DNA of 64,000 nt, taken from assembly GCA_963920705.1 (NCBI GenBank), contig OY987229.1, positions 21,085,728 to 21,149,727 on the forward strand, read 5' to 3'. Under the pieces are notes generated by a model, which had not been told where the DNA came from, searched no databases, and was given only the letters and a program-made list of their open reading frames with translations. Position 1 is the first letter of the stretch. Each line of letters begins with the position of its first letter. The translations under genes and the position numbers were made by a program. This stretch comes from Odiellus spinosus. Taxonomy: Eukaryota > Arthropoda > Arachnida > Opiliones > Phalangiidae. Positions 7,726-49,636 of this stretch are shown piece after piece.

Positions 7726-8438
7726 TTCAACACCTGTTTCAGTTTCAACAACCGATAGATGAAGTTACGATAAATTGATTTATAAAGAAAATGCGTGAAC
7801 ACGTGACGCTTAATACGATTCCTGACGATTTGAATATCAGTTTAATTTTACCGTTTCAAATCGGTTAATAATCCCAAAGTTTTCATCTCCACTTCTATAT
7901 TCTCCTTATTTCGGTTGTCGTAAAACGCTTGGAGGCGACGACAAGTTTTCCCCGACTTGAAATATATTCGGCGACAATACGCACGTGGGAGGCTTCGTAC
8001 CTCGCGAAATTTTATCGTCTTGGCCCTTTTTGGGGAGGAAAAAAAAAATATACGAACTTTGGGAAACCGATATCGAGATTGGGCGATCGTATATTTTAGG
8101 CCCATCTTCTGACTCGACTGTCCAAACAAACCGGAGAGAGAAATAAGGTGACATTCATTATCGAGAACTTTCGCACTATCGCGCCGTTTTCCGAGATATT
8201 CGTGTTCTTTCTAGGAAAAAGATAGAGTACCCAAAGGATTATGTAAGGATCGAAGTGGGTTTCGTCTAAATTATTAGCTGGAACTTTTAGATTTAATCTA
8301 TGGAAAAGATTAGAGCCCACTTGATTTTGGAGAAGAAAAGTTTCATAGATGGCCATACCTCCGAATTGGGAGACTGTAAGGGAAGGTTAACTATTTCCCT
8401 AAAATCTGTACACCAACTACTTATCTTATTACCCCAGA

Positions 8439-8739
8439 CAAGAAGGATCAGACAAGGAGAGGAAAAGTGGGACTGTGTTGAGTTAGAGAGAGAAGAGCCA
8501 ACCTCCCACTAGGGTGGAAAGGGGATAGGAAATTCTCGAGGTAAACTGTTGTCACGTGGTCGCGAGCCTAGTCCGATACTACGCGTCTCATAAAGTATCC
8601 GTTTTACTCACGTGACAACAATTTACCACGAAGAATCTCTACCCCCGACTGTCCCCCGTTCTCCCAGAGTGGGAGTTTAGGCCGACGCAGTAGGAACCGC
8701 GCCGTTCCCACTTTTCCTCTCCTTGTCTGATCCTTCTTG
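8439..8739 (+). mobile_element. Family B inverted-repeat element, copy 2
   Basis: A 301-bp element with ends CAAGAAGGATCAGACAAGG and its inverse. The perfect 7-bp duplication CCCCAGA is at 8432-8438 and 8740-8746. The nested inner inverted repeat contains CACGTG on each arm. The sequence is close to copies 1 and 3. Confidence 0.93.
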
Positions 8740-9344
8740 CCCCAGATAAGCCCCTCGGAGTTTGTATCTGTTGGTATAAAATATCGAATTTTATTTTCTT
8801 ACTAAACAGCTGTTACACACAGCGTTTGTAAAATATGGGAGGAGGTAGTGTCAAGAGGAAAGCTTTCTTTTATAATTTTATTCTTTCTGAAGCGCATGCG
8901 CGTTTTCGTGATCTACTTCTTATTTCGCTGATTGGGACACGCCTGCGCAAAAATATCTCCTCTTTTTGTCTATACCTCTTCTAACTTTTGGCCAAAAAAA
9001 GTAACTTAACTAAGGTAGTTTAGTTTCAACGAAAAAGTTACTTTTGGCCATAAAAATATTGATTGAAACCGAGGCTTAAGACATCTAGTTGGAGACCCTA
9101 ATTTTTTCCACTCCTTCACATTACGTCCTCCCAGATAAAATATTGAATCTTCGCGCTATCGTGATGTTCTTTATCAGTATCATTTGTCACGGTTACTTCT
9201 ATTGCCATGGGATTCTGGTTACACTTACGTAACGGAAGTAGAATATATTTTATCAGAATTTATTGGATATCTAGCTATAAGCGGCTTGGAATGTTTTTTT
9301 TTAAAAGGGTACAGGAAATATGTGTTCAAGATTAAGATGTTTTA
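8740..9344. other. Non-coding stretch
   Basis: AT-rich DNA with a GCGCATGCGCG patch at 8892-8902 and the inverted pair TTTTTGGCCAAA / AAAAGTTACTTTTGGCC around 8990-9050. No gene seen. Confidence 0.3.
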
Positions 9345-9613
9345 GTGTAGATTCTGAATTTCTTCGCAATGAACAGTCGGCGATCATGAAATCTTGCTTT
9401 AACCACTGGCCTTTGTTCATTGGTCGATAACCCTTCAATTTGAAGAAATTTAGGACCTCCATGAATCCAGCTAAGCCTATTTTGATGATAAGTTTAAATT
9501 TATTTCTGGTTTAATATGTGTATGTAAATTTTGTTTACTGGTGGATTAGTCCTATTTAAACGATAAGTAATCGACAAAAAAAAAATCACTTTTTGTTGGG
9601 TTGCATTCTCCCT
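9345..9613 (+). mobile_element. Family C element, right half (C2)
   Basis: Contains the C centre (AGTCGGCGA, ATTGGTCGATAACCC), then CTCCATGAATCCAGCTAAGC, TGGTGGATTAGTCCTATTTA and an end TTGCATTCTCCCT followed by TTAA at 9614-9617. The left arm is missing, so it is a truncated copy. Confidence 0.75.
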
Positions 9614-9617
9614 TTAA

Positions 9618-10044
9618 TCTCAGATTCGCAGATTTAAAAAAAAGTTCGTTTTTCTTCGTTTATAAGAGAGATAGGATACTCTGTAGCTTCAGGGTGCATC
9701 TGGTGATTTAAGTGAGAATATGGGATAGGTTATTATAAAGACAACAATTAGTTTTGGGTATAGCAAAATTCATTTTTGACGAAATGGCTAGATCATTAAA
9801 TTATAAACCGAATACTGTCCACTAATTTCGCTAAGGGGTGCTCAGTTTTAATGACAAAAATCCAGCATATTTTTATATCTTGTTATAGGTGTATAGTTTC
9901 CGGAAGACTTAAATTTATTGAACAAAATAATTAATAACTATTTTATTTGTCGTCCGATTTTGACGTTCTTTGTCTCATTTTAAAGCTCTCGTTGAGCTCT
10001 ATAAGAATCTAAATTTTACACGACCTGTCCTTGATAGGAAGAGT
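9618..10044. other. AT-rich stretch between two C halves
   Basis: No gene and no clear repeat. It separates a right half and a left half of family C. Confidence 0.3.
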
Positions 10045-10165
10045 GTAAACTAACAAGTGGTTCCTAATCCAACCGCAATAAATTTACAAACCAATATTAG
10101 ACTAGAAATAAATTTAAAACTTGCCATCAAAATAGGCTTAGCTGGATTCGTGGAGATAATCTAAG
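10045..10165 (+). mobile_element. Family C element, left arm fragment (C3)
   Basis: Matches the C left arm in order: ACAAGTGG, CCTAATCCA, ACTAGAAATAAATTTAAAAC and ATAGGCTTAGCTGGATTC. It ends abruptly after GGAGAT, with no centre or right arm. Confidence 0.7.
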
Positions 10166-11104
10166 GCCGGATTAAGAAATCTGGTGATACCTAAATCTCG
10201 GCGATTATTTTACTAAAATTTAGAAAAACGTGGCGTTGAACTCCCCGTTGAAGGACAAGCTACCAATGACATTGATCATGGAGATCCTGCATTCCTCGTT
10301 TAAGAACCATCGAACAATGCAATGGTTGTTACTCCTAATACGGGGAGTTCGATGATTTCCATGAATGCACTTGTTGTTAGGATGCATTCTGCCTTTAAGA
10401 ATACTTTAATTTACCCCCCCCCCCCCCTCCCCATTTCGCAGCTGACGCATGCTGCTTTGGAAGGTGTGTCTCCATATTTGTATATCTTCGATTTGATAAT
10501 GTACTCTCTAATTAGTAACTGGCAACTGGCTCTCTGGGAGTCTGGTGACCATGCTGTATACGGTATAATCCCCCGATTATATCACGAAAGCTCGAGTCGT
10601 TGGTTTTAATTATCTCGAGAAGTCATTTTCCTTCGTCGTAAATCGTTTATCATATATTATAAGTTCTCATTATTTTCTAATGGTTTGTATAATAAACCAA
10701 GGGTAGTTCGGGAAGACTAATTTTTATCCTTAATAGCTTTAACATTAGGTATTCATTCGCCAAGGCTTAGGTTTATATCGCAACGTCGCTAACGAACGGA
10801 AGAGTAATTGATGATATTACCCCGTCGAACAATTTGTTTGATTTGTGATGAAATTTGAAACTGCTTGGTGAAATTGTAAGGTTGTATGGGCAATAACTCA
10901 TTCTTAGTTCCCTGACGTTTCTGATTACCCCAGGGAGTAATAACTGGTTAAAATAAGTTACGAATGAACGGGTAATGATGTAGTTCCGGTTCTTTTAGGT
11001 TAAGTCGGGTTAAGTTAAAAGAATACCGTTACCATATTCGTTAGAATTTTCATACTTTTACTGTGTTTTACTTACTTTTGCATGGGTTGAAACTTAAAAT
11101 CCCT
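10166..11104. other. Non-coding stretch
   Basis: Contains a C run near 10411-10430. The frame at 10322-10609 crosses that homopolymer and is not family-like. Nothing else seen. Confidence 0.3.
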
Positions 11105-12392
11105 ACTTGAATGAATTAAATTCATGCTTAAATACCTTGAATACATTAAATTTACGCTTAAATAACTTGAATGAATTAAATTCATGCTTAAATAACTTGA
11201 ATGAATTAAATTCATGCTTAAATAACTTGAATGAATTAAATTCATGCTTAAATAGCTTGAATGAATTAAATTCATGCTTAAATAACTTGAATGAATTAAA
11301 TTTATGCTTAAATAACTTGAATGAATTAAATTTATGCTTAAATAACTTGAATGAATTAAATTTATGCTTAAATAACTTGAATGAATTAAATTCATGCTTA
11401 AATAACTTGAATGAATTAAATTCATGCTTAAATAACTTGAATTAATTAAATTCATGCTTAAATAACTTGAATTAATTAAATTCATGCTTAAATAACTTGA
11501 ATGAATTAAATTCATGCTTAAATAACTTGAATGAATTAAATTTTTGCTTAAGTTATTATATTGAATGAATTAAATTTTTGCTTAAGTTATTATCTTGAAT
11601 GAATTAAATTTATGCTTAAATTATTATCTTGAATGAATTAAATTTATGCTTAAATTATTATCTTGAATGAATTAAATTTATGCTTAAATTATTATCTTGA
11701 ATGAATTAAATTCATGCTTAAATAACTTGAATGAATTAAATTTATGCTTAAATAACTTGAATGAATTAAATTTATGCTTAAATTATTATATTGAATGAAT
11801 TAAATTTATGCTTAAATTATTATCTTGAATGAATTAAATTTATGCTTAAATTATTATCTTGAATGAATTAAATTTATGCTTAAATTATTATATTCAATGA
11901 ATTAAATTTATGCTTAAATTATTATCTTGAATGAATTAAATTTATGCTTAAATTATTATCTTGAATGAATTAAATTTATGCTTAAATTATTATCTTGAAT
12001 GAATTAAATTTATGCTTAAATTATTATCTTGAATGAATTAAATTTATGCTTAAATTATTATCTTGAATGAGTTAAATTTATGCTTAAATTATTATCTTGA
12101 ATGAGTTAAATTTATGCTTAAATTATTATCTTGAATGAATTAAATTTATGCTTAAATTATTATCTTGACTGAATTAAATTTATGCTTAAATTATTATCTT
12201 GAATGAATTAAATTTATGCTTAAATTATTATCTTGAATGAATTAAATTTATGCCTAAATTATTATCTTGAATGAATTAAATTTATGCTTAAATTATTATC
12301 TTGAATTAATTAAATTTATGCTTAAATTATTATATTGAATGAATTAAATTTATGCTTAAATTATTATCTTGAATGAATTAAATTTATGCTTA
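11105..12392. repeat. Minisatellite 2: interchanging 30- and 34-bp units
   Basis: About 40 units. The 30-bp form is AATAACTTGAATGAATTAAA plus TTCATGCTTA; the 34-bp form has AATTATTATCTTGA in place of AATAACTTGA. The 30-bp form fills 11105 to about 11550, four or so 34-bp units follow, the 30-bp form returns near 11697-11780, then 34-bp units continue to the end. The TTCAT variant contains a perfect 15-base dyad, ATGAATTAAATTCAT; the TTTAT variant breaks it. Confidence 0.97.
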
Positions 12393-12409
12393 CAGTTGAC
12401 TCTTTCTCT

Positions 12410-12562
12410 TTCTGATACGTGATAAGATCGCTTTCGCGCTGTCTTTTTCGTAAAAGTACTTTATCCAGATCAAGTCCTACCTTTTCATATCAAAATTATC
12501 GTTAATTACTTTCCAGAAATAAACTACGTCATTCGAAAAAAATCTTGACAGCCTTACTTTAG
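12410..12562 (-). repeat. Family H dispersed repeat, partial copy
   Basis: Reverse-oriented relative to 13545. It shows ACGTGATAAG, CGCTTTCGCGC, TTTTTCGTAAAAGTACTT, then ACTACGTCATTCG and TTGACAGCCTTACTTTA, in the same order as the copy at 45298. It begins about 18 bases after minisatellite 2 ends. Confidence 0.7.
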
Positions 12563-13188
12563 CATATTTCCCTTTTTTCTACTTTCTCTAGTTAATGAAT
12601 TCATCTAATTCATGTTAAATATACTTTATAATTAACCATAACACGACCCAATTAAGAGTCCTTGCCGCGAACTGGGCGCCGCGAAAGTGCATGACAATTA
12701 AAATGATCCCTAACCCGTTTTAACTTTCGTACTTTTAATCTAATGACTCTGTACAACGTAATTTATCTAAACATTGTAATTAAGGTGTGTCCTTCAAACG
12801 ACATGTAAGATATATTTTCGGTAGCTCACCCAGATTTTTCCAGAGCCAAGCCCGCTTTTATAATGAAAGGGATAACTAAAATTTGGGAAAAAATACCCGA
12901 ATTTTTCGAGGTTTAATTGCGTTCTTCGCATTTTTCCGTTGTGTGAGAACGGAAGTGGAATATTTTCCCGAGATATGTCTATATAGTTTAACCCCTTTTT
13001 AACTTTAAATTATTTTTGAATATTTTAATTATGTATTTCATCTAATGTGTTCTAATTAATATATGTTTCACCAATATATGTTTCAAATGTCTAGGGATTA
13101 TATTTTAATTTTATCATAAATTAACTCGACATATTAAAAATTTTATATCTCTGGGTTGACTTAAAATGAAAATGTCAAAAATTTATAG
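12563..13188. other. AT-rich non-coding stretch
   Basis: No gene or repeat recognised apart from a duplicated ATATATGTTTCA word at 13060-13087. Confidence 0.3.
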
Positions 13189-13195
13189 ATATTAA

Positions 13196-13533
13196 CAGAA
13201 GCCGATGAAACCCTCCTTTGAAGTCTACTACTCTAATGTTCCATATAGCGCTCCTCTCTGCATGGGTAAAATTCCCAATTTTACGAGATCGGAGGGGTCC
13301 TACTTCATACCCCCCTGTCTACGGAAAATTGGAAATTCTCTCTCTCCACAAACGACGACGTTTTTTTGACGAACTCCAAGGCTGCTAGAGATATTCGCTC
13401 GACGAGCTCCCGCTCCGAAAACATCTACCGTTAGGTGGCGTACGAATCGCGCCTTTTGAGAATAACCCATACAGAGAGGGGTAGACAAGACCCGGGAGTA
13501 ATAGACTTCAAAGGAGGGTTTCATCGGCTTCTG
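13196..13533 (-). mobile_element. Family A MITE, copy 2
   Basis: A 338-bp copy in minus orientation with both CAGAAGCCGATG ends intact. No 7-bp duplication is visible (ATATTAA before, ACGATAA after). A family H repeat begins about 12 bases beyond its right end. Confidence 0.93.
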
Positions 13534-13544
13534 ACGATAATTAA

Positions 13545-15306: not shown

Positions 15307-16728
15307 CGTATTCTGATGTATATTATCTGTTTGATTAATTATAGACTATTTTTCATTCGAGTTAACTTATTTTATTCGAAGATAGAGTGAAACCACATAA
15401 TCCATATCCATTTTTATCCAAAAATGGTCTTATCTTTGAATATTATCCGCGTTATATGTTCGGATAAAAAACATTCAAAATGTATTTTCGTGCAAAATAA
15501 TGAATAAAAAGATGATTTAAAATCTTAAGTTTCGTTGTTTTATTTATATTCTTCAAATTAAAAGTTAATTTGAAATATTTTTCTTATATTTTAGACTAAT
15601 TCTGGAAATGTGAATTTTCTTATCCATCGTTATACGTTTCAATGCGAGTAATTTGTAGATAGATAAAGCGCCAAATACATATCTTCGGGTAAACCTTATA
15701 CGTTTAACAATTATACGAATATGCAAATTTTATTTTTTAGTTACAATTTATCCGAAAATAAAATATCTGAAAATCTACCAATAACGGAAGATAATGGATA
15801 TCCGATTCCGAGCTCTACATTTCCCCCAAAAAATCGGGCTTAAACCAATCAGATTGTTTCTTTATTAATATGGGTGTGTGATAAAGCATCGATCATTGAC
15901 AAAAATATACAAATTACTTAATTCATCAACCAAAAATAAAACTTGTTTTTAATTTGATAGCTTGTTTATAAAATATGTAGATTAGTTTTATATAATTAAC
16001 TTGTTATTTACCTCCGACAGAAGCCGATGAAACCCTCCTTTGAAGTCTATTACTCCCGGGTCTTGTTTACCCTCTCTGTATGGGTTAGTTTCAAAAAGCG
16101 CGATTCGTACGCCTCCTAACGGTAGATATTTTCGGAGCGGGAGTTCGTCGAGCGAATATCTCTAGCAGCCTTGGAGTTCGTCAAAAAAACGTCGTCGTTT
16201 GTGGAGAGAGAATTTCCAATTTTCCGTAGACAGGGGGTATGAAGTAGGACCCCTCCGATCTCGTAAAATTGGGAATTTTACCCATGCAGAGAGGAGCGCT
16301 ATATGGAACATTAGAGTAGTAAACTTCAAAGGAGGGTTTCATCGGCTTCTGCCTCCGACGATAAGAGTTTGGCGCTTTATTTAAGAACAAATCACTCATT
16401 TTCAAACGTATAACGATGGATAAGAAAATTCATATTTCCAGAATCAGTCTAAAATAGAAAAATTTCGAAATTGAATTTTAATTCGAATGATATCAATAAA
16501 ACCACGAAACTAAGATTTTAAATCATCTTTTTATTCATTATTTTTCAAATAAATTTTGAATTTTTTTATCCGAACGTATAACGCGGATAATATTCTAAGA
16601 TAAGTTGCCATTTTTGGATAAAAACGGCTATGGATTACGTTTTTTTTTTTTACTTTATCTTCGAATAAGTTAACTCGAATGAAAAATAGTCTATTTTTAA
16701 TCAAACAGATAATATACATCAGAATTAA
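15307..16728. mobile_element. Large foldback element interrupted by family A copy 3
   Basis: Two arms of about 360 bp are inverted copies: left 15307-15680, right 16373-16728. Landmarks are TTCTGATGTATATTATCTG left against CAGATAATATACATCAGAA right, TTTTCATTCGAGTTAACTTA against its inverse at 16671-16690, CTTATCCATCGTTATACGTTT against its inverse near 16406, and GCGCCAAAT against TTTGGCGC. The loop holds family A copy 3. Without that copy the element is about 1.08 kb. The right arm has gained an inserted T run, so the arms have diverged independently. Confidence 0.8.
16018..16351 (+). mobile_element. Family A MITE, copy 3
   Basis: A 334-bp copy inside the loop of the foldback at 15307-16728. 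Perfect 7-bp duplication CCTCCGA at 16011-16017 and 16352-16358. Both ends are the CCGATG type. Confidence 0.95.
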
Positions 16729-17317: not shown

Positions 17318-17324
17318 ATTTAAT

Positions 17325-17661
17325 CAGAAGCCGATGAAACCCTCCTTTGAAGTCTATTACTCCCTGGTCTTGTCTACCCCTCTCTGTATGGGTTAGTTTC
17401 AAAAAGCGCGATTCGTACGCCTCCTAACGGTAGATATTTTCGGAGCGGGAGTTCGTCGAGCGAATATCTCTAGCCGCCTTGGAGTTCGTCCAAAAAACGT
17501 CGTCGTTTGTGGAGAGAGAGAATTTCCAATTTTGCGTAGACAGGGGGTATGAAGTAGGACCCCTCCGATCTCGTAAAATTGGGAATTTTACCCTTACAGA
17601 GAGGAGCTCTATATGGAACATTAGAGTAGTAGACTTCAAAGGAGGGTTTCATCGGCTTCTG
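17325..17661 (+). mobile_element. Family A MITE, copy 4
   Basis: A 337-bp copy. Perfect 7-bp duplication ATTTAAT at 17318-17324 and 17662-17668, with mismatching bases on either side, which fixes the duplication at seven rather than eight. Confidence 0.95.
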
Positions 17662-18051
17662 ATTTAATGTATGTGCACTTGGGATGGTTCATATTTTTTC
17701 GTGTGGTGGTCCAAAAAGCACCAAACTTCAACACGTGAAACACTATAGGCACGTAATTTCCCTCTTTGTCCCCCTTTGTAAGATAATATCCCTATCTTCT
17801 AAGTTGTTAAAAATGTAGAAAGCAGCGTGAATATGAATGTTGTCATTAGTATTTTTTGGGGCCATTACCGTTTCATATTAGCGCAGGGTTCCTAATTTGG
17901 GAGATGCTCGCCACGACAATGTCGCCGCGCTCGGGGCGGAACTAGGGTATGTTTTAAAATTAAAACACGCACCATACGCATCTACTACCGCGATTCCAGG
18001 ACGCTTAGATGACTTTATAGTAATCGAGAAGCTAATCCCACCACGTAGGTT

Positions 18052-21306: not shown

Positions 21307-21314
21307 TGTTATAC

Positions 21315-21631
21315 CAAGAATCCATTCAGGTCCCATAAGAATATGGGAGGGCCGCGATTCAATAACCATCCTCCCAAACTTTGTAGCAAAAGTTCGTCCG
21401 CTTCGAATCGATTTTTCAAGTAAATCGCTCCTGACATTATATTATTAACCCGCGCCACTAAAGACCTTGACATAATATTTTGGGTAATAAAAATGGAGCC
21501 AACAGAAAAAACATCTAAGCTTACAAATGTTGCAAAAATTGCGGACGAACTTTTGTTACAAAGTTTGGGAGGATGGTAACAGAGGCTAAAGCTATGCTCC
21601 CATATTCTTATGGAACCTGAATGGATTCTTG
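21315..21631 (+). mobile_element. Family I inverted-repeat element, copy 1
   Basis: A 317-bp element with ends CAAGAATCCATTCAGGTCCC and the inverse GGAACCTGAATGGATTCTTG. Perfect 7-bp duplication GTTATAC at 21308-21314 and 21632-21638. Inner arms share TCCCAAACTTTGTAGC and CAAAAGTTCGTCCGC with their inverses. It starts one base after a degenerate repeat tail. Confidence 0.93.
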
Positions 21632-21685
21632 GTTATACTATTAAACCGCCATATTATAGAATTTTCGTACGAAATAAAGGTACAA

Positions 21686-22596: not shown

Positions 22597-22934
22597 CAGA
22601 AGCCGATGAAACCCTCCTTTGAAGTCTATTACTCCCGGGTCTTGTCTACCCCTCTCTGTATGGGTTAGTTTCAAAAAGCGCGATTCGTACGCCTTCTAAC
22701 GGTAGATATTTTCGGAGCGGGAGTTCGTCGAGCGAATATCTCTAGTAGCCTTGGAGTTCGTCAAAAAAACGTCGTCGTTTGCGGAGAGAGAGAATTTCCA
22801 ATTTTCCGTAGACAGGGGGGTATGAAGTAGGACCCCTCCGATCTCGTAAAATTGGGAATTTTACCCGTACAGAGAGGAGCGCTATATGGAACATTAGAGT
22901 AGTAGACTTCAAAGGAGGGTTTCATCGGCTTCTG
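22597..22934 (+). mobile_element. Family A MITE, copy 5
   Basis: A 338-bp copy with intact ends. The flanks (ATTTTAT before, GTCATAT after) show no duplication, so the site may have rearranged or recombined with another copy. Confidence 0.93.
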
Positions 22935-23561: not shown

Positions 23562-23568
23562 GTTAAAT

Positions 23569-23986
23569 CAGAGGTATATAATAACACCCTTCGGGGGGAA
23601 GTATGAAAGCCCCTATACTACCAATGCTAAAAATCACGAACAACAAGAGCCCGCTGCTGACTATCTAGGCCACTAGCTCGCGCTGGACTTCTCAATGTCG
23701 CTACTCTAGTAAATGGTCTTTGTATAAACAAGACGGCTCGATTTGTGTTTAGAACTTCCTGTCTCAGGAGTCAGGCTGTCTGTTAAAATGGAGTCGAAGG
23801 TTGACTTCAGCTCGCGAGTTCCGGAAGTGTGCGTAGGGAAAATTTAGCGAGGTTCAAAATGGTGTAACTATTTTTTGGGAGCAAAGCGGTGTGTCGATCC
23901 GCCGCGATTTACGCCGGGCACTTGTTGTTCGTCGATTTTGCCTACCTTTCATACTTCCCCCCGAAGGGGGTTATTATATACCTCTG
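23569..23986 (+). mobile_element. Family E inverted-repeat element
   Basis: A 418-bp element with about 40-bp near-perfect ends: CAGAGGTATATAATAACACC then CTTCGGGGGGAAGTATGAAAG, inverted at the right. The perfect 7-bp duplication GTTAAAT is at 23562-23568 and 23987-23993. A further inner pair is ATCACGAACAACAAG against CTTGTTGTTCGTCGAT. The inside is GC-richer than the surroundings, with no long frame. A single copy here. Confidence 0.92.
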
Positions 23987-23993
23987 GTTAAAT

Positions 23994-25052: not shown

Positions 25053-25059
25053 GCGCCAC

Positions 25060-25396
25060 CAGAAGCCGATGAAACCCTCCTTTGAAGTCTATTACTCTCG
25101 GGTCTTGTTTACCCCTCTCTGTATGGGTTAGTTTCAAAAGGCGCGATTCGTACGCCTCCTAACGGTAGATATTTTCGGAGTGGGAGTTCGTCGAGCGAAT
25201 ATCTCTAGCAGCCTTGGAGTTCGTCAAAAAAACGTCGTCGTTTGTGGAGAGAGAGAATTTCCAATTTTGCGTAGACAGGGGGGGTATGAAGTAGGAGCCC
25301 TCCGATCTCGTAAAATTGGGAATTTTACCCATACAGAGAGGAGCGCTATGGAACATTAGAGCAGTAGACTTCAAAGGAGGGTTTCATCGGCTTCTG
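25060..25396 (+). mobile_element. Family A MITE, copy 6
   Basis: A 337-bp copy. The flanks GCGCCAC (25053-25059) and GCACCAC (25397-25403) match at six of seven bases, a decayed 7-bp duplication. Its right flank includes a family Q repeat at 25446. Confidence 0.94.
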
Positions 25397-25445
25397 GCAC
25401 CACTCTTTGGAGAAATTCCGGAATAGGGGGAAGACAATCTAGCCT

Positions 25446-26074: not shown

Positions 26075-26081
26075 ATGATAC

Positions 26082-26417
26082 CAGAAGCCGATGAAACCCT
26101 CCTTTGAAGTCTATTACTCCCGGGTCTTGTCTACCCCTCTCTGTATGGGTTATTCTCAAAAGGCGCGATTCGTACGCCTCCTAACGGTAGATGTTTTCGG
26201 AGCGGGAGTTCGTCGAGCGAATATCTCTAGCAGCCTTGGAGTTCGTCCAAAAACGTCGTCGTTTGTGGAGAGAGAGAGTTTCCAATTTTCCGTAGACAGG
26301 GGGGATGAAGTAGGACCCCTCCGATCTCGTAAAATTGTGAATTTTACCCATACAGAGAGGAGCGCTATATGGAACATTGGAGTAGTAGACTTCAAAGGAG
26401 GGTTTCATCGGCTTCTG
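26082..26417 (+). mobile_element. Family A MITE, copy 7
   Basis: A 336-bp copy. Perfect 7-bp duplication ATGATAC at 26075-26081 and 26418-26424. It starts 685 bp after copy 6 ends. Confidence 0.95.
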
Positions 26418-26428
26418 ATGATACAGAT

Positions 26429-27234: not shown

Positions 27235-27745
27235 CCTCTTTGATAGTTGAATATTTATTTTTACTGTCGATGTAAATTTTGTTCTATGACATATCAGAAG
27301 CCGATGAAACCCTCCTTTGAAGTCTACTACTCTAATGTTCCATATAGCGCTCCTCTCTGTATGGATAAAATTCCCAATTTTACGAGATCGGAGGGGTCCT
27401 ACTTCATACCCCCCTGTCTACGGAAAATTGGAAATTCTCTCTCTCCACAAACGACGACGTTTTTTTTTGACGAACTCCAAGGCTGCTAGAGATATTCGCT
27501 CGACGAACTCCCGCTCCGAAAATATCTACCGTTAGGAGGCGTACGAATCGCGCTTTTTGAGACTAACCCATACAGAGAGGGGTAAACAAGACCCGGGAGT
27601 AATAGACTTCAAAGGAGGGTTTCATCGGCTTCTGGACATATGTATATATATTTTGAATCGTTTTTCAACGATCTTTCCGTAAATGTTACTCAATTTCCAT
27701 TTGGACTTCATGAAATATAAGTGACAGCCTCACTTTAAATGCATT
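27235..27745 (+). repeat. Family H dispersed repeat split by family A copy 8
   Basis: The left piece has TATTTTTACTGTCGATG and TTGTTCTATGACATAT; the right piece resumes GACATATGTATATATATTTT, GAATCGTTTTTCAACGAT, TGTTACTCAATTTCCATTTG and ends GTGACAGCCTCACTTTAAAT. Removing the A copy and one GACATAT restores the continuous order seen at 13700-13835. Confidence 0.85.
27295..27634 (-). mobile_element. Family A MITE, copy 8, nested in family H
   Basis: A 340-bp minus-orientation copy. Perfect 7-bp duplication GACATAT at 27288-27294 and 27635-27641. The uninterrupted H copy at 13545 carries a single GACATAT at the same place, so it acts as an empty site and independently confirms the element's exact ends. 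Confidence 0.97.
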
Positions 27746-28133
27746 AGAAAAGACGCATACTCCCATGGCAAACCCTTTAGGCACAAATTAGCATAATCCA
27801 ATTTTTTTTTTTTTTCTTTCATTTATTGAGATTAAAAATATTTTTCCGCATTGAAGAAAGCTTTTTTCTAGGTCTATGTTATTACTTTTAATTCATTTTA
27901 GGCTTTCTTTTCTTATATTACGATTACTATCGCTTAAATGTCTTGGCCTTGGAAAGCTTCATAATGAGCGCGTCACAGTTCGAGGATGAGTTAATCCCCA
28001 TCAACCAGGAAAAACAGAGACATTTTTTACTTTTTAAATATGCCAAAAGCAATTTTTGGAATTTAAAGGGTTTGTGTATGCTTAGTACTATATTTTCTAA
28101 AAGGTATATTTCAGCAAAAGCCTCTATTATATT

Positions 28134-28449
28134 CAAGAATCCATTCAGGTTTCATAAGAATATGTGAGCATAGCTTTAGCCTCTGGTACCATCTTCCCAA
28201 ACTTTGTAACAAAAGTTCGTCCGCAATTTTCGAAACATTTGTTCGCTTAGAACTTTTTTCGGTCGGCTCCATTTTTATTACCCAAAATATTATGTCAAGG
28301 TCGTTAGTGGCGCGGGTTAATAATAGATGGCAGGAGCGATTTACTTGAAAAATCGATTCGAAGCAGACGAAATTTTGCTACAAAGTTTGGGAGGATGGTT
28401 ATTGAATCGCGGCCCTCCCATATTCTTATGGAACCTGAATGGATTCTTG
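28134..28449 (-). mobile_element. Family I inverted-repeat element, copy 2
   Basis: A 316-bp copy with CAAGAATCCATTCAGG ends, reversed relative to copy 1 (its interior is the complement of 21315-21631). Flanks TTATATT and TTATATG agree at six of seven bases. Inner motifs TCCCAAACTTTGTAACAAAA and GGCGCGGGTTAATAAT match copy 1. Confidence 0.9.
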
Positions 28450-28871
28450 TTATATGTTAATTCAGCTCGTACACTTTTAAAACTCCACATTCAAAATTTT
28501 ATATCTTCATCTGCACTGTCTCTTATTTTTAATGATACAGACATAATGTTCTTCGCTCTAATTATTCACGTTATTATTATATTTCGAGGGGTAAGTTTAA
28601 AGGAAATGCGTGGTAGGTACACAATTGACAATTCAAAATATAAAACGTCATCCGCCTACGAAACGTAGCATCAGTGACTCGATCTTGACTTCGATAATGG
28701 ATCTTTCGAGTCGATAAAATTTGAGGGTTTTGAACATTACGTTCGAAAACGGGAGGTTTCTTCGGGGTTTCTCTCTCTATCTCTCTCTTATAGCTTCTTA
28801 CGTAACTCTAATAATATTAAGATCAAAAGCACGTAAGTCATTTTCGTCCGTATTCTAGGATAAAAAATATC
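28450..28871. other. AT-rich non-coding stretch
   Basis: CT-rich microsatellite-like run at 28770-28792; no gene recognised. Confidence 0.3.
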
Positions 28872-36404: not shown

Positions 36405-38940
36405 CACATTTACCCTCTAGTTTACCGTTATTTAGCCCTCCAGTTTACCGTTATTTAGCCCTCCATTTTACCGTTATTTAGCCCTCCATTTTACCGTTAT
36501 TTAGCCCTCCAGTTTACCGTTATTTAGCCCTCCAGTTTACCGTTATTTAGCCCTCCAGTTTACCGTTATTTAGCCCTCCAGTTTACCGTTATTTAGCCCC
36601 CCAGTTTACCGTTATTTAGCCCCCCAGTTTACCGTTATTTAGCCCCCCAGTTTACCGTTATTTAGCCCCCAGTTTACCGTTATTTAGCCCCCCAGTTTAC
36701 CGTTATTTAGCCCCCCAGTTTACCGTTATTTAGCCCCCCAGTTTACCGTTATTTAGCCCCCCAGTTTACCGTTATTTAGCCCCCCAGTTTACCGTTATTT
36801 AGCCCCCCAGTTTACCGTTATTTAGCCCCCAGTTTACCGTTATTTAGCCCCCCAGTTTACCGTTATTTAGCCCCCCAGTTTACCGTTATTTAGCCCCCCA
36901 GTTTACCGTTATTTAGCCCCCCAGTTTACCGTTATTTAGCCCCCCAGTTTACCGTTATTTAGCCCCCCAGTTTACCGTTATTTAGTCCCCCAGTTTACCG
37001 TTATTTAGTCCCCCAGTTTGCCGTTATTTAGTCCCCCAGTTTACCGTTATTTAGTCCCACAGTTTACCGTTATTTAGTCCCACAGTTTACCGTTATTTAG
37101 TCCCACAGTTTACCGTTATTTAGTCCCACAGTTTACCGTTATTTAGTCCCACAGTTTACCGTTATTTAGTCCCACAGTTTACCGTTATTTAGTCCCACAG
37201 TTTACCGTTATTTAGTCCCACAGTTTACCGTTATTTAGTCCCACAGTTTACCGTTATTTAGTCCCACAGTTTACCGTTATTTAGTCCCACAGTTTACCGT
37301 TATTTAGTCCCACAGTTTACCGTTATTTAGTCCCACAGTTTACCGTTATTTAGTCCCACAGTTTACCGTTATTTAGTCCCACAGTTTACCGTTATTTAGT
37401 CCCACAGTTTACCGTTATTTAGTCCCACAGTTTACCGTTATTTAGTCCCACAGTTTACCGTTATTTAGTCCCACAGTTTACCGTTATTTAGTCCCACAGT
37501 TTACCGTTATTTAGTCCCACAGTTTACCGTTATTTAGTCCCACAGTTTACCGTTATTTAGTCCCACAGTTTACCGTTATTTAGTCCCACAGTTTACCGTT
37601 ATTTAGTCCCACAGTTTACCGTTATTTAGTCCCACAGTTTACCGTTATTTAGTCCCACAGTTTACCGTTATTTAGTCCCACAGTTTACCGTTATTTAGTC
37701 CCACAGTTTACCGTTATTTAGTCCCACAGTTTACCGTTATTTAGTCCCACAGTTTACCGTTATTTAGTCCCACAGTTTACCGTTATTTAGTCCCACAGTT
37801 TGCCGTTATTTAGTCCCACAGTTTGCCGTTATTTAGTCCCACAGTTTGCCGTTATTTAGTCCCACAGTTTGCCGTTATTTAGTCCCACAGTTTGCCGTTA
37901 TTTAGTCCCACAGTTTGCCGTTATTTAGTCCCACAGTTTGCCGTTATTTAGTCCCACAGTTTGCCGTTATTTAGTCCCACAGTTTGCCGTTATTTAGTCC
38001 CACAGTTTGCCGTTATTTAGTCCCACAGTTTGCCGTTATTTAGTCCCACAGTTTGCCGTTATTTAGTCCCACAGTTTGCCGTTATTTAGTCCCACAGTTT
38101 GCCGTTATTTAGTCCCACAGTTTGCCGTTATTTAGTCCCACAGTTTGCCGTTATTTAGTCCCACAGTTTGCCGTTATTTAGTCCCACAGTTTGCCGTTAT
38201 TTAGTCCCACAGTTTGCCGTTATTTAGTCCCACAGTTTAGCCCTCGAAGTTTGCCGTTATTTAGTCCCACAGTTTAGCCCTCGAAGTTTGCCGTTATTTA
38301 GTCCCACAGTTTAGCCCTCGAAGTTTACCGTTATTTAGCCCTCGAAGTTTACCGTTATTTAGCCCTCCAGTTTACCGTTATTTAGCCCTCCAGTTTACCG
38401 TTATTTAGCCCTCCAGTTTACCGTTATTTAGCCCTCCAGTTTACCGTTATTTAGCCCTCCAGTTTACCGTTATTTAGCCCTCCAGTTTACCGTTATTTAG
38501 CCCTCCAGTTTACCGTTATTTAGCCCTCTCAGTTTACCGTTATTTAGCCCTCTCAGTTTACCGTTATTTAGCCCTCTCAGTTTACCGTTATTTAGCCCTC
38601 TCAGTTTACCGTTATTTAGCCCTCTCAGTTTACCGTTATTTAGCCCTCTCAGTTTACCGTTATTTAGCCCTCTCAGTTTACCGTTATTTAGCCCTCTCAG
38701 TTTACCGTTATTTAGCCCTCTCAGTTTACCGTTTTTTAGCCCTCTCAGTTTACCGTTTTTTAGCCCTCTCAGTTTACCGTTATTTAGCCCTCTCAGTTTA
38801 CCGTTATTTAGCCCTCTCAGTTTACCGTTATTTAGCCCTCTCAGTTTACCGTTGTTTAGTCTCCCGATTTTACCATTATTTAGTCACCAGTTTACCGTTA
38901 TTTTTGGCCCAGATTAAGGTTATTTTGCCCTCAATTTACC
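36405..38940. repeat. Minisatellite 5: 23-bp unit, roughly 110 copies
   Basis: The unit is GTTTACCGTTATTTAGTCCC plus ACA, with 22-24 bp variants. Variants are in ordered blocks: GCCCTCCA (36410-36600), GCCCCCCA (to about 36965), GTCCCCCA (to 37040), GTCCCACA (to 37795), GTCCCACA with TTTGCCG (to 38235), a short compound block, then GCCCTCCA again (38340-38520) and GCCCTCTCA (to 38870). The end units decay. The core has dozens of identical consecutive units. Stops in every frame exclude coding. Confidence 0.98.
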
Positions 38941-39188
38941 ATTTTTTAGCCCAATATTCTAAAAAGTGATATTTTTTGGAAGCTGATGAAATATCACAGC
39001 TTAGTCTTGGGATTTTCTCACTATATATTTCTGTTTTACGAAACAAGGGGGGTGGAACCAAGGTCATTGAAAACTTTATAATAAGCTAGTGTCACTTGCC
39101 AAAAATCTAAACTGATGAAGAGTTAATTATTTTTCTATTTAAGTAAAAATAATTGAATTGTTATTCAGAGCTTGATTCGTAAGAATAA
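38941..39188. other. AT-rich stretch after the array
   Basis: No gene or repeat recognised. Confidence 0.3.
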
Positions 39189-41848: not shown

Positions 41849-41855
41849 GGTATAC

Positions 41856-42192
41856 CAGAAGTAGATGAAACCCTCCTTTGAAGTCTACTACTCTAACGTT
41901 CGATATAGCGCTCCTCTCTGTATGGGTAAAATTCCCAATTTTACGAGATCGGACGGGTCCTACTTCATACCCCCTGTCTACGGAAAATTGGAAATTCTCT
42001 CTCTCCACAAACGACGACGTTTTTTTGACGAACTCCGAGGCTGCTAGAGATATTCGCTCGACGAACTCCCGCTCCGAAAATATCTACCGTTAGGAGGCGT
42101 GCGAATCGCGCTTTATGAAACTAACCCATACAGAGAGGGGTAGACAAGACCAGGGAGTAATAGACTTCAAAGGAGGGTTTCATCGGCTTCTG
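41856..42192 (-). mobile_element. Family A MITE, copy 9
   Basis: A 337-bp minus-orientation copy. Perfect 7-bp duplication GGTATAC at 41849-41855 and 42193-42199. Its left end (CAGAAGTAGATG) is the subfamily variant; with the orientation corrected it is the same end as in copies 1, 10 and 12. Confidence 0.95.
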
Positions 42193-42855
42193 GGTATACT
42201 AGAATATTTGCTAATTAGATTAAATAAAATAGGATGACGACGAATCAAAATTCAATGCAACTGCGTCTTTAAAAATCTTTAATTTTTCTTAACGCAGGTG
42301 TTTTGATATAAGGGTATTTTTTTTTTTTTTGGCTGGATTTTTTCTCGTTGCTACCTCACGGAACGGATTTTTCGCTATTCAAAAGAGAGATTAATGTCGA
42401 TGTTATAATTTGGCGCGCTTTTAAAGTGCATGTTGGGTACTGGGTTTGGTTGGGAACTAATCATACGAACGTGATTTGGCGAATTAATTTCGTAAAACGT
42501 CAAGATTTTGTATACGAATTTTGACAGATTTTTTTGTGTACAGAAAAATATGAATCGTGTGCGTGTAGGTTTTTATTTATCGTTTCCAAAAGGATATTAA
42601 GTAGTAGAACTTAACTTGGATTATTTGTTTGGGAGGTAATAATGAGCCGGATTTGCTGTTAAGAAAAATTTGGCGGGAAAAATCTTCATTCTAATGGTTT
42701 TTGATATAAAACTCTACTATGGTTTGAAGTCTAGATTTCAAACAACGTGACAATTTGTCATCGTGTCGCTGTTTTCACGTCATTAGCGTGGGTCCTTTCG
42801 ATTCACTTTTAAGACACAATACAGACGACAAATGAAAAAGGCGCGAAAACTTAAG
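42193..42855. other. AT-rich non-coding stretch
   Basis: No gene or repeat recognised. Confidence 0.3.
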
Positions 42856-43944: not shown

Positions 43945-44075
43945 ACTCGGCTCAAATTCAACCGGAGTTTGCAACGAAGTTTATCTAGCTTGTGCATTTT
44001 AGCGTTTTCCTTAAATGGACAGACAGACGTACCTAGATAATTAAATAATTTAGATTGTGAAGTTTCTTAAAAACG
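43945..44075 (+). repeat. Family M dispersed repeat, copy 1
   Basis: Shares AACTCGG, CGGAGTTTGCAACGAAGTTT, TTTTAGCGTT and GACAGACAGACGTAC, in order, with 60487-60610. Confidence 0.6.
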
Positions 44076-44704: not shown

Positions 44705-44718
44705 GGGTTGCCACGGGG
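44705..44718 (+). promoter_or_regulatory. Possible RFX X-box-like site
   Basis: GTTGCCACGGGGAC fits the X-box pattern RYYNYY-N2-RRNRAC, but the right half is not the mirror of the left. It sits in a small GC-rich patch (44690-44760). Weak. Confidence 0.15.
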
Positions 44719-45297
44719 ACGGAAGATACGCGCCCGTAAAACCCCGCCACCTATCGAGGAAAAAATAGCGTGATCGCTATAGTGACGAAAAAACAAGTTT
44801 TTGCGTAACTAATTAAGCTTGATCTTCTTAATGCTTGTGGAACGACGTTAACACTATAAAGCTTTCATCTGCCTTGGGAATTTCTATCGTAATTATCTAT
44901 ATCGTATTCTTTGTTCAACTAATTAAAAGCAATGTATATAGTTATATTGTAAGGGGGAATTTCCAGTTTAGCTAGTAGTTATTGCTCTCTTCTTGTTTGT
45001 GTAATGGTTTAGATTAATCGAACAAATTTTAAAAGAGACGGCAATTTGGTTAAGGACCTTCCAATTTTCATTTCTTTTGTTGAGCCCCCAAAAATTTAGT
45101 CTTTTGTTTCTCTCGGGTGAGAACTTCTCGACTAAAACTCTCCCCCGACAATTTCAATAAAGAGCCTAAAAAGCTTTTCATACGTGATACGATTCTTTAA
45201 ATAAATTATAACGTTTACTCTTTAAATTATTATTATTAATAAACGCAAACTTAATTCCGTAAGATTAAACTTTTATTTAAAAAGTATTGGTTTTAAA
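44719..45297. other. AT-rich non-coding stretch
   Basis: No gene or repeat recognised. Confidence 0.3.
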
Positions 45298-45535
45298 TTT
45301 GAAATTTCGCTATTGTAGAGCCTATAGTTTATTCTCGGGCGTTCTGACACGTGATAAGGTAACTTTCACGCGGTCTTTTTCGTAAAAGTACTTAATTCAG
45401 AAATTCCTACCTTTCGTACCAAAATTATCGTTATGTTCCTGAAATAAACCACGTCATAAATTGTGAAAAAATGGCCTGTATATTTTTGACAGTTTCTCAA
45501 GAAAATTTCGTGACAGCCTCACTTTAAAATAAAAA
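45298..45535 (-). repeat. Family H dispersed repeat, minus-strand copy
   Basis: CGCTATTGTAGAGCCTATAG, GACACGTGATAAGGTAAC, CGCGGTCTTTTTCGTAAAAG, TACCAAAATTATCGTTATG, AAACCACGTCATAAATTG, then GTGACAGCCTCACTTTAAAA. The same order as 12410-12562, so the two form an H subgroup distinct from 13545. Confidence 0.78.
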
Positions 45536-46429
45536 ATAGAAAAATATTTAATTTCAAAAATTTTTAAAAATGAGCATATCCGGTTTAATTTTTTTGTTTT
45601 TTTTTTTTTTCTACTGAAAAATATTTCAAATGGCGCCAATTTTTTTTTTTCCTAATTTAAATATAGAGTAATGTGGCGTTAAGGTTTAAAGTATGTTATT
45701 TTTTTAGCGTCATATGTAAAAGGAAAAACTAGGTCGGATTCACAGACGAGTCCAATTTAATACTAAAGCCCCAAAAATATTATGCCATGCATGCACCCCG
45801 AAATATGATGTGTTTTCTACGACCTGTCAAAAATTCCAGATCGTTGAAAGGAACCCCTATCGATGGAATTAGAAAAAAACTAAAAAAAATAGGCGAGATA
45901 TAAAAAGACTGGTTCTAAAAGTAGAAATCAAATTTCAATATCAACTCCTATTAAAAAAAAACAAAATCATTGAGATTAAAGTTTCATCGCTTACTGAAAT
46001 TTGAATCTGATTTTGACCTCTATTTGATGGAGTTTATAATAGTGACAAACAATATTTTGGACCATGAAATTGCGTTCGTTAATTCTTGGATTATCTGAAA
46101 TATTAAAATATCTAATTTTCAATTTCATTGAACTTTATGAATGGACTCAAAACGAACGTTTCTGAAAACTCAGTAAACTCGTTAGCGTGTAATGTTATGG
46201 GCTGATGTATTCTACGTTACACCGGGTATACAAAAACATTCAAACTCTTCATTTTATTTTTCTTCGGACCCCAAGCTTAACAGTTTAACTCGACTAAGGA
46301 TATGACCTTAATCCAAATCCATCTTGAGATCTTGATCTCCAATCCGATCCCTTCTTTTAAAGTTCTTGGGAACTAGTATTATTGGAATAAAATGGCGAAT
46401 TTAATTTAAATATATGAGAAGTCACTTAC
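45536..46429. other. AT-rich non-coding stretch with T runs
   Basis: T homopolymers at 45589-45610 and 45639-45650. No gene recognised. Confidence 0.3.
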
Positions 46430-46520
46430 TAGGTCTTGGTTAAGATCCCAAGCGTTTCGCAAAGTTTCGCAGCAGTCGTTTTTCTTGAATCGTTTTGACG
46501 AAACTGCTTCGGGAACCACA
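46430..46520. repeat. Family N dispersed repeat, copy 2
   Basis: ACTAGGTCTTGG and GAAACTGCTTCGGGAACCAC match 7608-7725. Confidence 0.5.
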
Positions 46521-46870
46521 GGGTGACCACATTTCCTATTTTTTCACGTCCTTCCTATTTTCTCCTATATTTCTACTCAAAATCTCTAGTTAAGGGCAAA
46601 GTTCTAAATCATACTGTCAGCTGTGGCTGTATAAGATTATTTTAGCTTAACTGTACATTTTCCAGTTAAAATAGTCTGTAAAATTCCATACTATTTAAGT
46701 AATTGGATCATATTAATACCATGTTTAAACCGGTGGTGAGAGTTGTGATGCAATAATAAACACGGTTCCTACTTTTAATTAGTTATTTTACCATTTTATC
46801 ATATATTTTACACTTCTTCCTATTTTATCCTATATTTTCCTATATTTCCTATATAGGATTTTCAAATTTT
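46521..46870. repeat. TTCCTATTTT-bounded dispersed repeat
   Basis: Opens GGGTGACCACATTTCCTATT and TTCCTATTTTCTCCTATATT, and closes with TTCCTATTTTATCCTATATT and TTTCCTATATAGG before AAATTTTCAGTGG. The paired TTCCTAT blocks at both ends suggest a bounded element. No other copy in the window. Confidence 0.45.
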
Positions 46871-47624
46871 CAGTGGTTAGAGTAAGGAAATAATTCTAAA
46901 GTTAGGTTTAAATAAATTCTTGATGCTCCCCCTTAAATATACGATATTATACACCAGTACTTTTTCGTTCGTCGTAATAAAGACATTTATCTTTAATTAA
47001 TCAGCGACGGTTTTATTAAGTTAAATGTCATTTTTGACCGCGAGTGGGCCCGTACATATAGCTTCAATTTTGTTATAAATCATGTTTTTTAAAAAAAAAA
47101 TGAGTTATTATAGCAAATGCGCTGCTGGTATTAGCTCCGTGGTACGCGATAAAAATCATCCTTTGGCTAAGATGAAATTTAATTTCGTAATTGTAGTACA
47201 TAGCCTGGGAATTTCTTACGCTCCGGGCGTTCTTACGTGGAAACTTATAATTGGGTTTTTGGCTTATTTATCATCTCTTTAATAAATCGCGTGTATAAAT
47301 GCATAACGGAGGGGGCGGCGTACGATACGCCCTCTATTAAAGAGGGCTAAAGCTTTTAAAAAATATATAAATTGCTCGATAGATTAACCATGATTTTGGG
47401 TTTATATTTAGGCTTACGCTTCTAGTCTTTGCATGTAATCTATCATGAAAGTCCCGAAAGAAAAAGGTTGTGTGGTTTTCACTAGGGAACACTTGGGATC
47501 TAGGTACTGTTCGAACAATTTTACACGAGACCCAGTGTATTTCATCGTAATCTTATTGGTTCTAATTTGGGTATGCATTTGATTGAATTTAAAACGGTCA
47601 AGGATCGAGGGGTTACTTTTCATT
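46871..47624. other. Non-coding stretch
   Basis: The frame 47082-47282 opens with a poly-A-encoded lysine run and is followed by AATAAA at 47280, but I do not recognise it and would not call a gene. Otherwise nothing. Confidence 0.3.
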
Positions 47625-48328
47625 AATTCCCGAAATGATCGACACCGTCGATAACATATTCCCGAAATGATCGACACCGTCGATAAGATTCACAAAATGA
47701 TCGACACCGTCGATAACAGATTCCCAAAATGATCGACATCGTCGATAACAGATTCCCAAAATGATCGACACCGTCGATAACAGATTCCCAAAATGATCGA
47801 CATCGTCGATAACAGATTCCCAAAATGATCGACACCGTCGATAACAGATTCCCAAAATGATCGACACCGTCGATAACAGATTCCCAAAATGATCGACACC
47901 GTCGATAACAGATTCCCAAAATGATCGACACCGTCGATAACAGATTCCCAAAATGATCGACACCGTCGATAACAGATTCCCAAAATGATCGACACCGTCG
48001 ATAACAGATTCCCAAAATGATCGACACCGTCGATAACAGATTCCCAAAATGATCGACACCGTCGATAACAGATTCCCAAAATGATCGACACCGTCGATAA
48101 CAGATTCCCAAAATGATCGACACCGTCGATAACAGATTCCCAAAATGATCGACACCGTCGATAACAGATTCCCAAAATGATCGACACCGTCGATAACAGA
48201 TTCCCAAAATGATCGACACCGTCGATAACAGATTCCCAAAATGATCGACACCGTCGATAACAGATTCCCAAAATGATCGACACCGTCGATAACAGATTCC
48301 CAAAATGATCGACACCGTCGATAACAGA
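47625..48328. repeat. Minisatellite 7: 32-bp unit, about 22 copies
   Basis: The unit is AGATTCCCAAAATGATCGAC plus ACCGTCGATAAC. The left edge is degenerate (CCGAAATG, shortened unit near 47687) and two units near 47735 and 47798 share a C-to-T change (GACATCGTC) two units apart. From 47840 the array is almost perfect. Because 32 is not a multiple of 3, a 96-base cycle keeps all minus frames open; those long frames are artefacts. Confidence 0.97.
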
Positions 48329-48330
48329 GA

Positions 48331-48461
48331 TTTGGGTCGAAATGATCGAATTTCATATGATCGATTGAGTTAAAAAACTAACCTAACCTAACCTAAATAT
48401 TTCGATCATTTAATCCAAAAAACTGGTTTCGATCACTTAAAAGTCGATCAATTGGGACGAT
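48331..48461 (+). repeat. Family G dispersed repeat, copy 1, between two array blocks
   Basis: Ordered motifs: TTTGGGTCGAAATGATCGAA, TTTCATATGATCGATTGAG, (CCTAA)3, ATTTCGATCATTTAATCCAA, ACTGGTTTCGATCACTTAAA, AGTCGATCAATTGGGAC. The whole order is repeated in reverse at 60650-60796. It separates the main array from three further array units at 48473. Confidence 0.9.
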
Positions 48462-48472
48462 ACCGATAACGG

Positions 48473-48566
48473 ATTCCCAAAATGATCGACACCGTCGATA
48501 ACAGATTCCCAAAATGATCGACACCGTCGATAACAAATTCCCAAAATGATCGACACCGTCGATAAA
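48473..48566. repeat. Minisatellite 7, detached three-unit block
   Basis: Three units of the same 32-bp repeat after the family G segment, in the same orientation as the main array. Confidence 0.95.
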
Positions 48567-49028
48567 ATTCTTAAATTAATCAGACACAAGGTAACAAATA
48601 ACAAGTCCCAAATTAAACATGATATTAATTTTTTAATACTTCAGATTCTTAATTGAATTAATTTAATTAGTCTTAATAACTTAGCATATTAATTATACTT
48701 GTTATAAAATTAACAAACTTTTTCTAAAGAGAATAAAATTTCAATTAAAGCTTATACGCACGATATTGTTTTAAATTAATAGTGGTTAAGCAATTATTTT
48801 TTCAAACCGGTTTAAAACACGGAAAAAAATAATTAAATTAGCCAAATTAATGAGGTAAAAAGTTCTCCCCGTTATAATTTTCGAATTAAGTACCGGTATA
48901 CGTATAATTGGAGAAACGCGCGCTATGTACAAATATAATTACTCTTTTATTCCGTGTTTAATCAAACACGATATAAAATTAAACGAGTTATTCCGGGTTC
49001 AAGGATGCCTTCAAAAATTCCTCTAGCT
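48567..49028. other. AT-rich non-coding stretch
   Basis: No gene or repeat recognised. Confidence 0.3.
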
Positions 49029-49032
49029 TTAA

Positions 49033-49636
49033 AGGGATAATGCAACCTAATAACAAGTGATTTTTAATCGATTCCTTATCGTTTAAATATGCCTAATCCA
49101 ACAGTAAACAAATTCTCAAACAAATATTAAACTAGAAATAAATTTAAAAGTTAACCCGGAAAATAGGCTTAACGATATTCATGGAGATCCGAAATTGCCT
49201 CCGTGTAAGGTCTAGCAACCAATGAGCGAAGGTCCGTCATTCACGAGACTTAAAATTGCATTCTTATACGCGAGCAAGAAGGATCAGATGAGGAGAGGAA
49301 AAGTGTTTCTGCGTTGAGTTAGAGAGAGAAGAGCCAACCTCCCACTCGGGTGGAAAGGGGGGATAGGAAATTCTCGAGGTAAACTGTTGTCACGTGGTCG
49401 CTAGCTAGGGCGTCTCATAAAGGATTCGTTTTACCCACGTGACAACAATTTACCACGAAGCATCTCTACTCCGTCTGTCCCCCGTTCTCCCAGAGTGGGA
49501 GTTTAGGCCGACGCAGTATGGCCGCGCCGTTCCCACTTTTCCTCTCCTTATCTGATCCTTCTTGACGCGAGGAAATCAGAATCTCCATGAATCCCGCTAA
49601 GCCTATTTTACGGGTAAGTTTTAAATTTAATTTTTA
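49033..49636 (+). mobile_element. Family C element (C5) split by family B copy 3
   Basis: TTAA at 49029-49032 precedes AGGGATAATGCAACC, then the whole left arm (ATTCCTTATCGTTTAAATA, ACTAGAAATAAATTTAAAAG, AAATAGGCTTAACG, ATGGAGATC). The centre is cut by B3 at 49275-49564, and C resumes GAAATCAGAATCTCCATGAA, GCTAAGCCTATTTTACGGGT. The right outer arm is missing beyond about 49636. Confidence 0.85.
49275..49564 (+). mobile_element. Family B element, copy 3, nested in family C
   Basis: A 290-bp copy. Perfect 7-bp duplication ACGCGAG at 49268-49274 and 49565-49571. The nesting in C5 gives clean boundaries and shows that B moved after this C copy was in place. Confidence 0.96.

Follow-up and report, generated by a model that had tools for sequence, protein, structure and literature searches.

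Four families of miniature inverted-repeat transposable elements (MITEs), designated A, B, E and I, were analysed in a 64,000-nucleotide stretch of the Odiellus spinosus genome (hereafter the window; G000:C5:21085728-21149727 of a 443-Mb assembly). The families share CAR ends (CA followed by A or G) and 7-bp target-site duplications (TSDs). With a probability of about 0.8, they are high-copy MITEs of the P superfamily, moved in trans by the P-type transposases of longer P elements with a 7-bp stagger at a palindromic target. The set most likely consists of ordinary P-element offshoots and not of a new transposon class. Family B arose from a P element by deletion, as judged by the direct homology of both of its ends; families A, E and I probably belong to the same superfamily on the basis of their duplication length and target motif.

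The P-type transposase, with a THAP domain, a split RNase H fold and a GTP-binding insertion, would come from longer P elements at other places in the genome. This enzyme would recognise the terminal inverted repeats (TIRs) of the MITEs in trans, excise the elements by cut-and-paste, and join them to positions 7 bp apart in the palindromic AT-rich sequence TNN[rTwwwAy]NNA, the central 7 bp of which would become the duplication. For families A, B, E and I, we infer excision and binding in trans from Drosophila P.

Duplication length and target of the four families

The window was scanned for 16-mers starting with CA[AG] that have an inverted partner and are flanked by 7-bp direct repeats with at most one mismatch. 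Among the 18 rows obtained, 15 were elements of the four families: 10 A copies with their duplications, and all the B, E and I elements and duplications that a sequence-only reading of the window had quoted. The remaining three (2.2–2.8 kb) were looser pairs, due to chance or nesting. A stricter scan (TIR matches of at least 14/16, exact duplications) returned 13 CAR-ended inverted-repeat elements at 7 bp and none in the window with exact duplications of 5, 6, 8, 9 or 10 bp; its sole 4-bp match spans two A copies. No elements at 6, 7 or 8 bp appeared in 20 order-1 Markov controls. A blastn search located 12 A, 3 B, 1 E and 2 I copies in the window, 18 in all; a 7-bp duplication (at most one mismatch) flanks 15 of these. 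The TIRs are 16–41 bp long across the families (34 bp in B and 41 bp in E) and perfect or nearly so, and the elements measure 337 bp (A), 290 bp (B), 317 bp (I) and 418 bp (E). Since the best matches between families are of 8–13 bp, their interiors are unrelated, and the earlier description of common ends and common duplications around different interiors thus holds.

Copy numbers were taken as TIR counts at one to two mismatches (forward/reverse), with the reversed pattern as control. The counts were 12,922/12,980 for A (control 0/0), 2,983/2,977 for B (control 7/6), 3,102/3,070 for I (control 41/47) and 2,216/2,176 for E (control 0/0). Forward counts and element lengths give an estimate of about 21,000 copies for the four families together, amounting to about 7 Mb or about 1.6% of the genome. 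Duplications were read with their flanks in 20 copies per family (80 in all), a sample biased for A, B and I towards copies on contig C1 whose TIRs are intact, and for E towards the best-scoring copies. An exact 7-bp duplication was present in 17/20 copies of B, 16/20 of E, 12/20 of A and 8/20 of I; with up to one mismatch, the numbers were 19/20, 20/20, 17/20 and 16/20, respectively (72/80 in total). Genome-wide duplications of another length in B, E and I would have refuted the sequence-only reading; in the sampled copies of these families, the length is 7 bp. Deliberately wrong pairings of flanks agreed in 12 of 1,520 cases. The exceptions include one I copy with a 6-bp-looking duplication and two A copies without a recognisable right end. 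Two of the eight exact I copies have identical flanks and therefore represent one insertion event. The sampled E copies, being the best-scoring ones, diverge by 0.7–1.7% from the E copy of the window, and this family looks recently active. Duplications are usually 8 bp long in hAT elements and 8–10 bp in Mutator-like elements (MULEs). Not one of the 80 sampled copies had an exact duplication of 8 bp or of any greater length, and no CAR element of the window had one of 8, 9 or 10 bp.

The 15 window sites were pooled with the 72 sampled duplications that had no more than one mismatch. In these 87 sites, a palindromic 13-bp target, T-NN-[rTwwwAy]-NN-A, in which the bracketed 7 bp are the duplication, was found to be common to the four families; the sequence-only reading had not mentioned it. 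Its four symmetric positions are T at -3 (62/87), T at the second duplication base (TSD2, 63/87), A at the sixth (TSD6, 71/87) and A at +3 (64/87), accompanied by weaker preferences for G at the start and C at the end of the duplication. Each family alone shows the motif, except B at TSD2. Three or four of the four bases were present at 10/21 sites of B, 13/18 of I, 21/21 of E and 18/27 of A, compared with about 10% of random window positions. The P superfamily is recognised by duplications of 7 or 8 bp at a palindromic AT-rich target, and such duplications and targets were found for A, E and I. The recurrence of the 7-bp stagger and of one palindromic target in all four families is what a single type of transposase would be expected to produce.

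Family B and the P elements of the genome

Family B was traced to a P element, P-B, represented by two copies. Copy 1 (L135, C2:22245100-22252000) is 5,857 bp long from TIR to TIR. Its left end (254–404) matches B 7–156 with 80% identity and its right end (5962–6093) matches B 159–301 with 83%. Between these ends lie a THAP exon (domain at 962–1327; PF05485, E 1.6e-10) and a 786-amino acid (aa) open reading frame (ORF) with P domains, namely RNase H (PF21787, E 2.9e-24) and the GTP-binding insertion (PF21788, E 1.6e-14). At E <= 0.01, this ORF matched one solved structure only, the P transposase of Drosophila (6p5a/6pe2, E 9.8e-8), and aspartates of the ORF align with its D230 and D303; catalytic roles are assigned to D230, D303 and E531 of the Drosophila protein in the cited part of PMC7776569. 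A putative third acid was noted by eye in a D-x-x-E stretch in downstream frames of L135 and L138 (RDSLENYF and QDSLENYF). This stretch of the P-B copies resembles the C-terminal half of RNase H, and splicing to its frame is putative.

Copy 2 (C2:23518804-23523123, 4,320 bp) has CAAGAAGGATCAGATA, the TIR of B, at both ends, matches B 1–157 (79%) and B 159–301 (85%), carries a P gene, and is flanked on both sides by the perfect 7-bp duplication ATAGATC. As the ends of P-B match the two halves of B around a P transposase, B consists of the two joined ends of this P element. Judging from its sequence, the P-B parent combines the features of the P superfamily: RNase H with the GTP-binding insertion, THAP, catalytic acids and a 7-bp duplication. 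Neither P-B copy is claimed to be active. Given the descent of B from a P element and the 7-bp duplications known in P from Galileo, the suggestion of the sequence-only reading that the mobilising lineage may be a divergent or poorly described superfamily is not supported. Comparison of the MITE ends with the flanks of P genes yielded P-B for B and no such element for A, E and I at the 62 P places described below.

Three further observations concern B and P-B. The B copy L037 (G000:C1:132963-133633) contains a tandem array of three left arms (unit of about 170 bp) plus one right arm and probably moved as a unit, since a single pair of 7-bp duplications encloses all the arms. Another MITE, which begins CAGGGACGGAAATAAG, sits inside both L135 (405–904) and the I copy L059. 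L136 (G000:C9:1779300-1785300) is a P element with the 16-base terminus of B (16/16, about 5803–5818, minus strand) at its 5' side; its sub-terminal sequence and transposase differ from those of the B parent. Its 3' terminus was looked for and not found, and its place is absent among the 62 matches listed to the P-B protein (57 of 341 candidates scored).

The genome contains at least 150 PF21787 matches (150 scored of 386 candidates) and 144 PF21788 matches; the P gene number is an absolute count, as the 14 control genomes of the family searches cannot serve as eukaryote controls, the three named among them being prokaryotes. Flanks were read at 62 of the 150 listed PF21787 places, 30 of them with 1.5 kb on both sides and the rest mostly on one side. 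Duplications of 7 bp flank L036 (3,777 bp, CGGTG ends, ATTATAC), L159 (2,996 bp, ends as in L036, GTCAATC) and L034 (4,581 bp, CGTTG ends, GTTTATA). Since three of the four P lineages with resolved ends, each represented by one to two copies, use 7 bp, this length is not rare among P elements here. The CAR end is weak evidence and no general mark of P elements, because others begin with CGGTG, CGTTG or CATAG. The shared target motif is stronger evidence for a common enzyme type than the CAR ends.

Copies in the window

In what follows, the span with both duplications is given in brackets after the element. Family B has a 301-bp copy at 8439–8739 (8432–8746, plus strand) with the TIR CAAGAAGGATCAGACA and the duplications CCCCAGA, and a 290-bp copy at 49275–49564 (49268–49571, plus strand) with ACGCGAG. 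An older B copy with CAAGGAGGATCA ends was detected by blastn at 3336–3627 (plus strand), with no 7-bp duplication recognised in its flanks. The E element of 418 bp lies at 23569–23986 (23562–23993, plus strand) and has a 41-bp TIR and the duplications GTTAAAT. Family I is present as a 317-bp copy at 21315–21631 (21308–21638, plus strand; GTTATAC) and a 316-bp copy at 28134–28449 (28127–28456, minus strand), the duplications of which, TTATATT/TTATATG, differ by one mismatch.

Seven duplication-flanked A copies lie on the plus strand, at 7068–7405 (7061–7412; ATTTTAC), 16018–16351 (16011–16358; CCTCCGA), 17325–17661 (17318–17668; ATTTAAT), 25060–25396 (25053–25403; GCGCCAC/GCACCAC, one mismatch), 26082–26417 (26075–26424; ATGATAC), 51717–52053 (51710–52060; GTTAAAT) and 61502–61841 (61495–61848; ATATAAA). 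On the minus strand are the copies at 27295–27634 (27288–27641; GACATAT), 41856–42192 (41849–42199; GGTATAC) and 59536–59873 (59529–59880; GTAAATG). Two more A copies, at 13196–13533 (minus strand) and 22597–22934 (plus strand), were found by blastn, and no 7-bp duplication was recognised in their flanks. The copy at 26082–26417 is open in one frame from end to end (112 codons). Outside these families, the window regions 5494–6162, 11072–11569, 38478–38969, 47613–48377 and 62400–63463 are repetitive and contain long open frames (e.g. PPIEKRVSKL repeats); they are satellite-like and are not considered genes.

Alternative explanations and known P-type systems

Several points weigh against P-type transposition of all four families. 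Flanks read at 62 of the 150 P places listed (at about half of the 62, one flank only) revealed no P element ending like A, E or I; a partner for E in particular ought to exist, because the sampled E copies differ so little, and none was found. In P-B copy 1, the left tip is rearranged, an insertion is nested at 405–904 and a duplication is absent; PF21789 (RNase H C-terminal) was unmatched in its 786-aa ORF, whose end precedes that domain. The P gene of copy 2 holds in-frame stops. The two P copies that were scored, P-B copy 2 and L036, fit the 13-bp motif poorly, with 2/4 bases each, and T at TSD2 is not significant for B alone (10/21, p 0.12). Finally, the P element L031 (5,207 bp, CATAG ends) makes an 8-bp duplication, CGCCAACC.

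Near the 62 P places, only E-like, I-like and A-like matches of 13–14/16 and one neighbouring A MITE were seen. The E-like ends (14/16) in L002 and L003 were rejected as termini, both copies staying alike upstream; the A-like 13/16 match in L128 was judged to be chance; and the A copy, which lies beside the P element L034, is outside the TIRs of L034 and points away from the gene. Family I has a 735-bp variant (160 candidates, 40 scored), the interior of which gave pattern matches at 46 places. Thirteen further places were read: five are long I MITEs from end to end, four (L146, L148, L152 and L158) are also long I MITEs but contain inserts or gaps or have lost part of an end, and four (L150, L151, L153 and L154) diverge early from the variant, with no frame above 121 aa in the ORF lists of L150 and L153. 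In addition, L059 is a long I variant with a nested CAGGGACGG element. The search by way of the 735-bp variant for a large transposase-bearing I element thus led to nothing but more MITEs and copies that diverge or are truncated. Facing E termini at G000:C1:17192963-17196504 (3.5 kb) and C1:23108057-23109288 (1.2 kb) are candidate larger E elements; no listed PF21787 or PF21788 match lies inside either pair.

The lack of a transposase-bearing A, E or I element at the 62 sampled P places would also fit a reading in which only B is a P derivative, and at least one of A, E and I is mobilised by some other 7-bp transposase (from a variant of MULE or hAT, or from a superfamily as yet unclassified) at similar AT-rich palindromes. 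Both MULE (72 matches) and hAT (at least 150; 150 scored of 220 candidates) transposases are present in the genome, which is all that these searches establish. MULE matches lie 8–10 kb from the I copies L148, L150 and L151 on contigs C107, C152 and C215: on two of these contigs, which are near-identical, the distance to truncated I copies is about 8 kb, and on the third a match is about 10 kb from another I copy. However, this last copy is a long I MITE of the ordinary kind, interrupted by an insertion, and the two near-identical contigs count as one event, so this proximity looks like clustering in transposon-rich DNA. The cited part of PMC3169594, a nematode paper, refers to an uncharacterised inverted-repeat element that has 7-bp duplications and is assigned to no superfamily; the Mutator-type Tm1 is there given duplications of 8–10 bp. 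We consider it unlikely that B stands apart in this way, as the four families share not only the 7-bp length but also four palindromic positions, two of which flank the duplication (B being weak at one).

Because L136 has the end of B with a different transposase, termini may be shared across P lineages. This second P gene, with its 16-bp B terminus, and the common CAR ends, stagger and target motif would be in keeping with a single P transposase that cross-mobilises all four families, captured or evolved independently under it. Such an enzyme is quite improbable, since the TIRs of the families differ beyond the first 3–6 bases and, with many P lineages coexisting, separate P partners are simpler. 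Of the one transposase lineage proposed by the sequence-only reading, one enzyme type is in keeping with the stagger and target, and the single lineage for all four is inferred, a transposase having been traced for B only. A Dada-type or otherwise new superfamily is highly improbable: Dada duplications are of 6–7 bp, but in the cited part of PMC3706591 Dada is without TIRs and inserts into small RNA genes, whereas here the TIRs are perfect or almost so and the targets AT-rich DNA, no Rfam family or tRNA was matched in the window, so that the marks of Dada were not found, and a new superfamily is already contradicted for B, whose enzyme is P.

P-type transposition of the four families, the preferred reading, can be compared with known systems. 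Galileo, a member of the P superfamily in Drosophila, makes 7-bp duplications with the consensus GTATTAC or GTANTAC; they lie within a palindrome of 15 bp, and a few duplications are 8 bp long (cited parts of PMC4168063 and PMC2775673). It resembles the present families in its 7-bp duplications and in a palindromic target that reaches past the duplication. In contrast, Galileo has long, internally repetitive TIRs and the flanks AANGT...ACNTT, whereas T at -3 and A at +3 are found here, with TIRs of 34 and 41 bp in B and E. Any closer kinship to Galileo within P is conjectural. The AgaP-MITE families of Anopheles gambiae, which have P-derived ends and 8-bp duplications (cited part of PMC1562414), are likewise short and non-autonomous, match a P element at their 5' and 3' ends (as B does here) and comprise several families per genome. 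They differ in their 8-bp duplications and in a centre unrelated to P, as compared with 7 bp here and A, E and I without a P master found. Drosophila P and zebrafish Pdre2 resemble P-B in THAP, RNase H with a GTP-binding insertion, the D-D-E acids and the terminal CA (CATACC in Pdre2), but their duplications are of 8 bp and not 7 bp (cited parts of PMC7776569 and PMC10983969).

No P-type MITEs with this 13-bp target were announced in the titles found by a literature search (P superfamily, 7-bp duplications, MITEs, THAP9, Dada), which is not proof of absence. It is a tentative and rather unlikely extension that a P branch with its own 13-bp target has moved at least four unrelated MITE families to about 20,000 copies, its lineages sharing or swapping termini and one enzyme serving several. 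The analysis places one abundant MITE family in the P superfamily with confidence and three more with probability, and so adds further users of 7 bp to a group known mainly for 8 bp. The target motif may be used to file unassigned MITEs as P-type.

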